Source: Chitinivorax sp. PXF-14 (lineage in GTDB: Bacteria; Pseudomonadota; Gammaproteobacteria; Burkholderiales; SCOH01). From it: 64,000 bases of DNA. The DNA is taken from positions 186,001 through 250,000 of the forward strand of contig NZ_JBFNXJ010000003.1 of NCBI RefSeq assembly GCF_040812015.1, given 5' to 3'. This document shows positions 61,540-64,000 of this stretch, in pieces; the first letter of the stretch is position 1, and every line of letters starts with the position of its first letter. The notes under the pieces were generated by a model. It did no database searches. It saw only the letters and a list, made by a program, of their open reading frames with translations, and had not been told where the DNA came from. A program made the position numbers and the translations under genes.

Positions 61540-62580
61540 TTACATGAAGTTTTCCTTGTTCATCGCCTTGGTGCGCGCCTCGGCTGCCGACACGACATTG
61601 CGGCGCACGAGCTCGGTCAGGTTCTGGTCCAGGGTCTGCATGCCCGCGTTCTGGCCGGTCTGGATCGCCGAATACATCTGCGCCACCTTGTTCTCGCGGA
61701 TCAGGTTACGGATCGCCGGCGTGCCGATCATGATCTCGTGCGCCGCCACACGGCCGGTGCCGTCCTTGGTCTTGAGCAGCGTCTGCGAGATCACCGCGCG
61801 GATCGATTCGGACAGCATCGAACGCACCATTTCCTTTTCGGCAGCCGGGAACACGTCGACGATACGGTCGATGGTCTTGGCGGCGGACGAGGTGTGCAGC
61901 GTGCCGAACACCAGGTGGCCCGTCTCGGCGGCGGTCAGCGCGAGGCGAATGGTTTCGAGGTCGCGCATTTCACCGACCAGGATCACGTCCGGGTCTTCAC
62001 GCAGCGCGGATTTCAGCGCGTTGTTGAAGCTCATCGTATGCGGCCCGACTTCGCGCTGGTTGATCAGGCATTTCTTCGATTCGTGCACGAATTCGATCGG
62101 GTCTTCCACCGTCAGGATGTGGCCGTACTCGTTCTCGTTGATGTAATTGATGATCGCCGCCAGCGTGGTCGACTTGCCCGAGCCGGTCGGCCCGGTCACC
62201 AGCACGATGCCGCGTGGCTGGTTGGCGATCTCGGTGAACACCTTGGGCGCGTTGAGGTCTTCGAGCGACAGCACCTTGGACGGAATGGTCCGGAACACGG
62301 CACCCGCACCACGGTTCTGCACGAAGGCATTGACGCGGAAGCGCGCCAGATTGGGGATTTCGAACGAGAAGTCGCATTCGAGCGTTTCTTCATAAATCTT
62401 GCGCTGCCCGTCGTTCATGATGTCGTACACCATATCGTGCACATCACGATGCTCCATCGCGGGCAGATTGATACGGCGTACGTCGCCATGCACGCGAATC
62501 ATCGGCGGCAGGCCAGACGACAAGTGCAAGTCGGAGGCCTTGTTCTTGACCGCGAACGCGAGCAGCTCAGATATTTCCAT
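61540..62580 (-). CDS. pilT: Type IV pilus retraction ATPase PilT
   Basis: PilT is the main retraction motor of type IV pili. The 346-residue product has the N-terminal ISELLAFAVKNKASDLHLSSG, Walker A VTGPTGSGKSTTLAAI, Asp box ILTVEDPIEFVHESKK, Walker B DPDVILVGEMRDLETI, His box GHLVFGTLHTSSA and the C-terminal AIRNLIRE motif required for retraction. It is divergent from yggS, the arrangement seen in Pseudomonas and Neisseria relatives. The 92-base gap must hold both promoters. Confidence 0.97.
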   Translation of the reverse strand: MEISELLAFAVKNKASDLHLSSGLPPMIRVHGDVRRINLPAMEHRDVHDMVYDIMNDGQRKIYEETLECDFSFEIPNLARFRVNAFVQNRGAGAVFRTIPSKVLSLEDLNAPKVFTEIANQPRGIVLVTGPTGSGKSTTLAAIINYINENEYGHILTVEDPIEFVHESKKCLINQREVGPHTMSFNNALKSALREDPDVILVGEMRDLETIRLALTAAETGHLVFGTLHTSSAAKTIDRIVDVFPAAEKEMVRSMLSESIRAVISQTLLKTKDGTGRVAAHEIMIGTPAIRNLIRENKVAQMYSAIQTGQNAGMQTLDQNLTELVRRNVVSAAEARTKAMNKENFM

Positions 62581-62672
62581 TTATAATCTCCCGAAAACCA
62601 CGCCAGATCGTCCTGTCACGGCGGTATGGACGATTGCCCCAAGGGCATATCAGCAAAGACTGAAATTTCATT

Positions 62673-63656
62673 ATGGGCACAATAAAAACTGCATTGCAAG
62701 CCGTGCACCAGCGCATTGCGCAAGCCGCGACAGCGGCCGGACGCAGCCCGGAAAGCGTGCGCCTGCTGGCTGTGAGCAAAACCTTCCCGGCCGATTGCGT
62801 CAGCGACGCCTACCAGGCGGGGCAGCTCGCATTCGGCGAAAACTATGTGCAGGAGGCGGTGGAGAAGATCACAGGGCTGGGTGGGTTGAGCGTTGCGCAT
62901 GTGGGTGATGGCGGGGTGGGCAGGCGGGGCGCGCCGGATGCGGCCACATCCGAACTGAGCATCGCGCCCGGTTCGGACTGCCATTCGAGTGCCGTCGCAT
63001 CCCCGCAGACGGGGCCCAACGAGACCCTGATGCTCACTGCAGAGGACACCACCGGCTCGTCGGTGCCAACGTTCACGGTAGGAGGCACTGCCGGTTCATC
63101 CGAACCGGGCATTGAGCCCGGCTCGGACTGCCATTCGAGCGCCGTCGCATCCCCGCTTGCGGGGCCCCTGCTCTTGCCGCTCGAATGGCACATGATCGGC
63201 CCGCTGCAGAGCAACAAGACCAGGTTGGTCGCGGAGCACTTCGATTGGGTGCATACGGTCGAGCGGCTCAAGACCGCCGAGCGGCTGTCGGCGCAGCGTC
63301 CGGCGCAGCTGGCGCCGTTGCAGGTCTGCATCCAGGTCAATGTGAGCGGCGAGGCGAGCAAGAGCGGCTGCGCGCTTGACGAGGTGCCAGCGCTGGCTGC
63401 GGCAGTGGCCGGGCTGCCACGGCTGCGCCTACGCGGGCTCATGTGCATTCCCGAGCCGACCGAGGACGAGACCAAGCTGCGCGCGCAGTTCCGCACGCTG
63501 CGCGAGTGCTTCGAGCGGCTGAACAGCAGCGGCTTGGCGCTCGATACCCTGTCGATGGGCATGTCGGCCGACCTCGAGCTGGCGATTGCCGAGGGCGCAA
63601 CCATCGTCAGGATCGGCACGGCGATCTTCGGCGCCAGGGCCAGGCCCACCCCCTGA
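62673..63656 (+). CDS. yggS: PLP homeostasis protein YggS (PLPBP) with a large in-frame insertion
   Basis: YggS binds pyridoxal phosphate without catalysis and keeps B6 and amino-acid balance. The normal length is about 230 residues; this one has 327. The N-terminal part is typical (LLAVSKTFPAD with PLP Lys36; LAFGENYVQEAVEKI). Residues about 70-166 are a foreign Ser/Gly/Ala/Pro-rich stretch carrying two copies of PGSDCHSSAVASPxxGP. The family sequence resumes exactly at LPLEWHMIGPLQSNKTRLV and continues through VCIQVNVSGEASKSG, LRGLMCIPEP and SMGMSADLELAIAEGATIVRIGTAIFG. The insert keeps the frame, so the gene is probably functional. proC follows after 40 bases. Confidence 0.93.
   Translation: MGTIKTALQAVHQRIAQAATAAGRSPESVRLLAVSKTFPADCVSDAYQAGQLAFGENYVQEAVEKITGLGGLSVAHVGDGGVGRRGAPDAATSELSIAPGSDCHSSAVASPQTGPNETLMLTAEDTTGSSVPTFTVGGTAGSSEPGIEPGSDCHSSAVASPLAGPLLLPLEWHMIGPLQSNKTRLVAEHFDWVHTVERLKTAERLSAQRPAQLAPLQVCIQVNVSGEASKSGCALDEVPALAAAVAGLPRLRLRGLMCIPEPTEDETKLRAQFRTLRECFERLNSSGLALDTLSMGMSADLELAIAEGATIVRIGTAIFGARARPTP
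62947..63017 (+). repeat. Palindromic repeat in yggS, copy 1
   Basis: It starts CATCCGAACTGAGC and ends CATCCCCGCAGACGGGGCCC. It contains CCGAAC...GTTCGG (6-bp arms) and CCCCG-caga-CGGGG (5-bp arms). It encodes most of SELSIAPGSDCHSSAVASP. It differs from copy 2 at roughly nine positions by eye. Confidence 0.8.
63097..63167 (+). repeat. Palindromic repeat in yggS, copy 2
   Basis: It starts CATCCGAACCGGGC and ends CATCCCCGCTTGCGGGGCCC. Its first hairpin is longer than in copy 1 (CCGAACCGGGC with GCCCGGCTCGG, one mismatch), and its second is CCCCGC-tt-GCGGGG. Where the copies differ, base pairing is kept or extended, so the hairpins seem to matter. Confidence 0.8.
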
Positions 63657-63696
63657 TTACCCCATCATCAGCAGTTAACCACTCAGGTACACCCCC

Positions 63697-64000
63697 ATGA
63701 AAATCACATTCATCGGCGGCGGCAATATGGCCACCGCATTGATCGGCGGCATGCTGGCACAGGGCTTCGAGCCCGCCGACCTGACCGTGATCGAACCCTC
63801 CGGCGACAAGCGCGCCGAGTTGCAGGCGTCGTTCGGCGTTCACACCCAGGCGGCGCTCGCCGGTGGCCTGCCGGCATGCGACGTGATTCTGCTCGCGATC
63901 AAACCGCAGAGCATGAAGGAAGTCGCGGGTGAACTGGCCGGCAAGATTGGCGGCCAGCTGGTGATTTCCATCGCCGCGGGCATTCAGGTAAGCTCGCTCG
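63697..64000 (+). CDS. proC: Pyrroline-5-carboxylate reductase ProC (3' end outside the window)
   Basis: ProC reduces pyrroline-5-carboxylate to proline with NADPH. The 101 visible residues start MKITFIGGGNMATALIGGMLAQG, the Rossmann motif of the family, and continue to CDVILLAIKPQSMKEV and VISIAAGIQVSSL. It follows yggS in the same direction after 40 bases, the widespread yggS-proC order. Confidence 0.95.
   Translation, partial: MKITFIGGGNMATALIGGMLAQGFEPADLTVIEPSGDKRAELQASFGVHTQAALAGGLPACDVILLAIKPQSMKEVAGELAGKIGGQLVISIAAGIQVSSL

Follow-up and report, generated by a model that had tools for sequence, protein, structure and literature searches.

The window, the stretch of 64,000 nucleotides of Chitinivorax sp. 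PXF-14 (genome G000) analysed here, carries on its forward strand at 62673-63656 the gene yggS for the PLP homeostasis protein. The gene encodes 327 amino acids in an unbroken frame, and the original prediction of a palindromic element lying in frame inside it is confirmed. A phmmer alignment with E. coli YggS (1w8g) places the insert at about 62892-63176 on the forward strand, where it adds about 95 residues between positions 73 and 76 of the E. coli protein, close to the 97 estimated at first. The distance from GEN to FIG amounts to 122 residues in the window protein; in the relatives that could be parsed (97 of 113 loci, 16 remaining unparsed) it is 26-31 residues, with exceptions of 35 and 37 and three proteins that carry their own long inserts (65, 69 and 95). 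The NCBIfam model TIGR00044 matches the window protein in two stretches, the better one covering residues 170-322. Most aligned YggS proteins of relatives are without the long form and relatives of the repeat occur elsewhere, so the case that would have spoken against the prediction, a long YggS common to all close relatives and without repeat relatives elsewhere, did not arise. As similar inserts are present in other genomes, misassembly is an unlikely source of the insert.

An AlphaFold2 model computed from an alignment with 46 yggS proteins predicts a disordered insert in an otherwise intact enzyme core. The core is modelled at high confidence, and most of residues 74-163 have pLDDT values below 50 and are devoid of secondary structure, forming a loop that leads from helix 59-70 to strand 171-174. 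Residues invariant in the same alignment include W172-H173 and the PLP-lysine segment S35-K36-T37. One further YggS protein, encoded at L128 (G298), has a different in-frame insert of about 58 amino acids near residue 188 of the ordinary protein, which is rich in Ser, Thr and Gln and shows no core by eye.

At the nucleotide level, the insert holds two direct repeat copies of 71 bp on the forward strand, the first made up of a spacer hairpin, an inverted host copy and a core. As predicted, these copies (62947-63017 and 63097-63167) lie 150 nt apart; they are 87% identical and differ in 8 of 23 codons, three synonymously and five nonsynonymously. Both contain a 32-nt REP-like core of the form GGTCGCATCC-hairpin-GGCCCCTGCTCC on the forward strand, at 62993-63024 (28.5 bits with model R1, 27.0 bits with model R2) and at 63143-63174 (45.2 and 44.5 bits), and it is this core with its arms, rather than the 71 bp, that constitutes the family-wide unit. 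The second core is enclosed by an exact 13-nt inverted repeat on the forward strand linking the insert to its host gene: the 5' arm of the outer stem, TGCCATTCGAGCG at 63129-63141, repeats the host LEWH codons in inverted orientation, and the 3' arm, CGCTCGAATGGCA at 63178-63190, consists of these codons themselves. A weak inverted core match at 62920-62945 on the reverse strand (model R1, 12 bits, E 0.034 in 1.1 kb) is tentatively read as what may remain, after decay, of the left half in a REPIN-like pair. The fold of 62900-63200 is better than that of most shuffled sequences (z -2.5; 2 of 100 shuffles as good). The repeated peptide described earlier is present as well, its segment GSDCHSSAVASP being unchanged between both copies. 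Its added Cys and His arise because the insert contains the inverted copy of the LEWH codons: within PGSDCHSSAVASP, CHSS is the antisense of these codons and VASPxxGP is the core, and therefore neither needs a protein function. We thus dropped a reading of the Cys and His residues as a metal site.

A dispersed core with covarying stems

Searches by DNA, pattern and model (the latter scoring the best 150 of 3395 candidates) found no core outside yggS in the 4.42-Mb assembly of the window genome. The expectation of a 71-bp unit scattered through this genome was therefore not borne out, but the 32-nt core is dispersed in relatives. Of 399 genomes examined from the order, 67 from 18 coded families carried it at E<=0.005 with a second model, the window genome among them; as the best 18 candidates per genome were scored and copies were missed, these counts are lower bounds, and about two chance matches are expected at this threshold over 399 genomes. 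A strict core pattern run on 13 genomes matched other places in G027, G030, G076 and G154, and the reversed pattern gave no match in the same genomes. A model built from 15 cores, with the best 150 candidates scored per genome, found the core at E<=0.5 in 10 of 16 genomes, with 23 copies in G076, nine in G154, eight in G027, three each in G030 and G230, two in G000 (both in yggS) and one or two each in G046, G073, G116 and G164. The similarity across families holds at the DNA level. Copies are found as inverted pairs whose starts lie 69-90 bp apart and as tandem arrays with a period of 108-146 bp; with its 150-bp period, the yggS repeat resembles such an array. The core family is hence a REP-like repeat dispersed through genomes of the order.

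Plasmid and phage collections yielded no core match or weak partial matches. The core pattern is present in one contig of a viral collection, IMGVR_UViG_3300037308_000271 (L323, 2522-2555). A minor element type was seen at starts reading ATGAGCAGG (L289, L291, L293, L304, L319 and L320, for example L320 1518-1668). It encodes MSREQGPR or MSRKQGPR peptides; several of its copies end where a TGA overlaps the next ATGA, and some stand in tandem arrays of 110 bp.

Both stems of the element covary. Over 61 non-redundant copies, the longest stem of the inner hairpin averages 5.62 bp, compared with 4.53 +/- 0.09 bp when halves are swapped between copies, and reaches at least 4 bp in 57 of them; on the core alignment A2, which is gappy, RNAalifold returned no consensus pair. 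Pairing of the flanks was first suggested by lining up 91 copies outside yggS. The outer stem starts 5 nt upstream and 7 nt downstream of the core, an offset chosen on the data. For the main type, represented by 51 non-redundant copies, it forms 5.06 of seven Watson-Crick pairs; shuffling the partners 1000 times gave 2.68 +/- 0.18 and never more than 3.27, and taking the best over all offsets, 60 shuffles reached a maximum of 3.16. Pairs 1-7 are formed in 61-84% of the copies versus 30-53% after shuffling, pairing from the eighth position onward is at chance, and the two pairs adjoining the core covary too. All seven pairs are present in 16 of the 51 copies, which have 14 different arms, and an eighth pair in two of these 16. 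Outside yggS, the element thus has a seven-bp outer stem that covaries while its arm sequence changes from copy to copy. In the minor type B (10 copies) the outer stem is weak, with 4.00 pairs at one fixed offset and a shuffled maximum of 4.30.

Recurrence at one position of yggS and copies in other genes

A YggS match was obtained in 389 of the 399 genomes, and split matches together with some others were followed up in 27 genomes. At least nine genomes (G000, G027, G030, G076, G104, G148, G230, G293 and G354) have a long insert at the loop, with GEN-to-FIG distances of 44-122 residues, a lower bound given that inserts short enough for a single alignment may be missed. Clear cores are present in yggS of G000, G027, G076 and G230 and a weak one in G293 (26.8 bits), and the long loops of G030, G104, G354 and G148 are without a scoring core. 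In 80 named yggS neighbourhoods no core matched at E<=1 under default filters; with filters off, a weaker core emerges in yggS of L044, a named metagenome genome (18.2 bits, E 0.08 in 57 kb). In all six carriers (G000, G027, G076, G230, G293 and L044, those of G293 and L044 being weak matches) the core sits at the identical nucleotide, in the same orientation and in the same frame. Its end lies 11 nt from the TGG in five of them; for G293 the distance is 12 nt and the core one nucleotide shorter. Longer YggS loops in the same place, without detectable core, were also noted in L127 and L129 (f10) and in L135 (f18); these could stem from old insertions that have decayed or simply from growth of the loop.

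On a yggS tree computed without the loop, G000 groups with f1, G027 stands beside G154 (branch value 98) and G293 falls within f49 (branch value 98), all with insert-free neighbours; it is mainly for these three that insert-free kin are clear. G030 pairs with G076 of the same genus (branch value 99), both being long-looped, as are both known members of f27; G230 lies apart from the other f43 genes, and L044 is without known kin. Seven insert-bearing rows require six changes on this tree, as counted by a quick method with many open forks. Such a distribution makes it rather improbable that a single insertion in an ancestor, or the horizontal spread of one yggS allele, gave rise to all inserts and was lost from most lineages. 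A single origin would fit the site, frame and core common to several families, and carriers resemble one another slightly more in the 12 nt upstream of the site (a similarity reached by 118 of 2000 random sets). It would fit as well that the His codon following the insertion point is CAC in all seven insert-bearing genes versus 54 of 149 ordinary ones (159 rows), a link that was noticed before being tested and that may reflect a target preference or chance. On the other hand, G000, G027 and G293 group with insert-free kin; downstream of the site, the six carriers share no more DNA similarity than random sets do, which gives no signal of short-tract transfer; and a core this conserved would be hard to retain for so long in an insert that is otherwise being scrambled.

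The host LEWH codons provide the 3' strand of the outer stem in yggS, and in three carriers the insert arm is an inverted copy of the host's own version of these codons, over 13 bp in G000, 9 bp in L044 and 8 bp in G293. G027, G230 and G076 have 3-4 contiguous bp with the host, and with gaps allowed G027 and G076 align further. Among 720 permutations of arms and targets, four (the true one counted) reach the pairing observed in yggS. In a set extended by copA, uvrA, relA and pirin, 11 of 20000 random pairings do as well as the true one, a result to which G000, L044 and copA contribute most. Neither pirin nor G230 stands out from the others in this test, and the 7-bp stem of pirin is among the 51 outer-stem copies. 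These sequences would be explained most simply if the host flank had served as template for the insert arm. Template switching driven by hairpins, described in the accessible literature as a route to such inverted copies, does not by itself explain the fixed length of seven.

Copies of the core also lie within genes other than yggS. In the pirin gene of G027 an in-frame copy forms a 36-aa insert that is missing from three distinct homologues, and pirin matches in other genomes are likewise split at this point. Direct repeats that may be target-site duplications, as in MITEs, were noted in two G027 genes: the pirin insert has an exact 15-nt direct repeat at its ends, with host CGCGGTCCGGCGCGC on each side, and the yggS insert a 12-nt direct repeat with two mismatches. 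Further in-frame cores are located inside the copper-type P-type ATPase gene copA (G247), UvrA (G133) and RelA/SpoT (G051). A sample of 26 loci, one per genome (L277-L302), from ten of which one long ORF each was scanned, showed the core inside conserved genes at these three loci. Ten further ORFs from eight loci include three with domains, and the core is not clearly within them. The core is open in all six frames, and its frame in copA, uvrA and relA differs from that in yggS, which pirin shares. The suggestion that the element evolved to be translated is unsupported by these data, given the six open frames and the three of 26 sampled loci.

Known elements and the origin of the insert

Palindromic repeats inside genes are of a kind already known. 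The core family is a short palindrome in multiple copies, often in inverted pairs, as REPs are. In its available portions, Di Nocera et al. 2013 (PMC3733652) reports intragenic GTAG/CGTC REPs, including clusters that encode 43-82 aa, inserts in uvrA, and insertions into recB whose position is about the same in two species of Xanthomonas. As described there, these REPs resemble our family in being short palindromes with inverted pairs, arrays and in-frame copies, uvrA included, and in that some dimer spacers have complementary ends. The core family differs from this description by the absence of the GTAG tag, by reading mostly GGTC instead of CGTC, by its longer conserved strands, by the copy-specific 7-bp outer stem and by the nucleotide-exact yggS site in six carriers. 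No unpaired GTAG or GTGG-type end tag was found, the core ends reading GGTCGCATCC and CCTGCTCC (GGAG on the other strand). Nor is there a CGTC tag with a stem starting with complementary AT; outside the inner stem the copies read mostly GGTC and then GCAT, and those of the window CGTC. From what is accessible of PMC3116915 and PMC2817692, REPIN/RAYT systems likewise arrange REP-like units as inverted doublets with a spacer, but the core family does not lie beside the tested Y1 transposase matches. PF01797 matches occur in nine of 12 genomes, with none in G000, and 22 such loci (63 kb, flanks up to 1.5 kb) contain no core match at E<=1. With the tag absent and these loci free of the core, we rejected filing the family under GTAG REPs.

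Rickettsia palindromic elements, as outlined in the accessible text of PMC3733652, are palindromes kept in frame inside unrelated proteins, and the comparison with them drawn in the original prediction holds insofar as the core is dispersed in other genomes and inserted in frame in the unrelated genes yggS, pirin, copA, uvrA and relA; the hosts are different, and the likeness is one of description. Also compared by description, the enterobacterial RU elements (Delihas 2007, PMC2759123, as far as its available part shows) are MITE-like repeats read through as protein, but with repeat units of 103-168 bp. Rfam gave no match at gathering score in 11 loci and none at E<=1 in six loci; for 62500-63700 of the window it listed two chance-level matches (E 2 and 4.8). 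The literature searched, which included few subscription journals and covered REP, REPIN and RAYT in Betaproteobacteria, YggS insertions, in-frame palindromes, template switching and the element sequence, contained no report of the core family, its copy-specific 7-bp outer stem or the recurrence in yggS.

We consider it probable that a REP-like palindrome inserted in yggS before the TGG of LEWH, was kept as a tolerated in-frame insert and was later duplicated in tandem. A unit with a variable 7-bp outer stem, conserved GGTCGCATCC and GGCCCCTGCTCC strands and an inner hairpin would have entered the gene just before this TGG and would have been retained because it is in frame, free of stops and placed in a loop between helix and strand that tolerates length, to be enlarged later by the 150-bp tandem duplication. 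The inverted arm of copy 1, which lacks a partner, would be expected if the LEWH-adjacent unit was duplicated in tandem. The arm may have been templated from the host flank, at insertion or via hairpin-driven template switching, the six carriers would represent separate insertions, and the element presumably is or was mobile without benefit to YggS. Against such an insertion, G000 and G293 have no other core copy in these searches and hence no visible donor, and in three of the six yggS copies (G027, G230 and G076) the uninterrupted host stem measures 3-4 bp.

A more specific proposal, which we put forward tentatively, is a mobile palindrome of a new class that would re-make its outer stem at every insertion by inverted copying of exactly seven target nucleotides, or would recognise its target through 7-nt pairing, and whose homing-like preference for one yggS position would repeatedly add a disordered loop. 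It is doubtful that random insertion followed by selection suffices, with survival limited to in-frame copies in the YggS loop that tolerates most and the shared site reflecting tolerance: the variable loop length, the long loops of G104, G354 and G148 without a scoring core and the predicted disorder of the insert agree with it, but tolerance does not predict one nucleotide, orientation and frame in six of six carriers when six core frames are open, and copA, uvrA and relA use other frames (pirin that of yggS). Ordinary loop growth via local tandem and inverted duplication without a mobile element is very unlikely, since the core is found outside yggS, dispersed in other genomes and genes, even if the insert does contain a 150-bp tandem repeat and inverted host-codon copies and G076 has an apparent decayed repeat of the host PLEWHFVG. 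Least credible of all is a selected functional module, for instance for metal binding by Cys and His: the peptide segment identical in both copies would fit it, but CHSS is antisense of the LEWH codons, other carriers have different residues at that place and no fold is predicted.

With the probable insertion of a REP-like palindrome, yggS offers a case in which the conversion of selfish-like DNA into protein can be traced to one exact codon in several lineages and compared with insert-free kin. Should the target template the outer stem, the copies would record how REP-like palindromes insert, a poorly understood process, and such insertion would become testable by comparing filled and empty sites.
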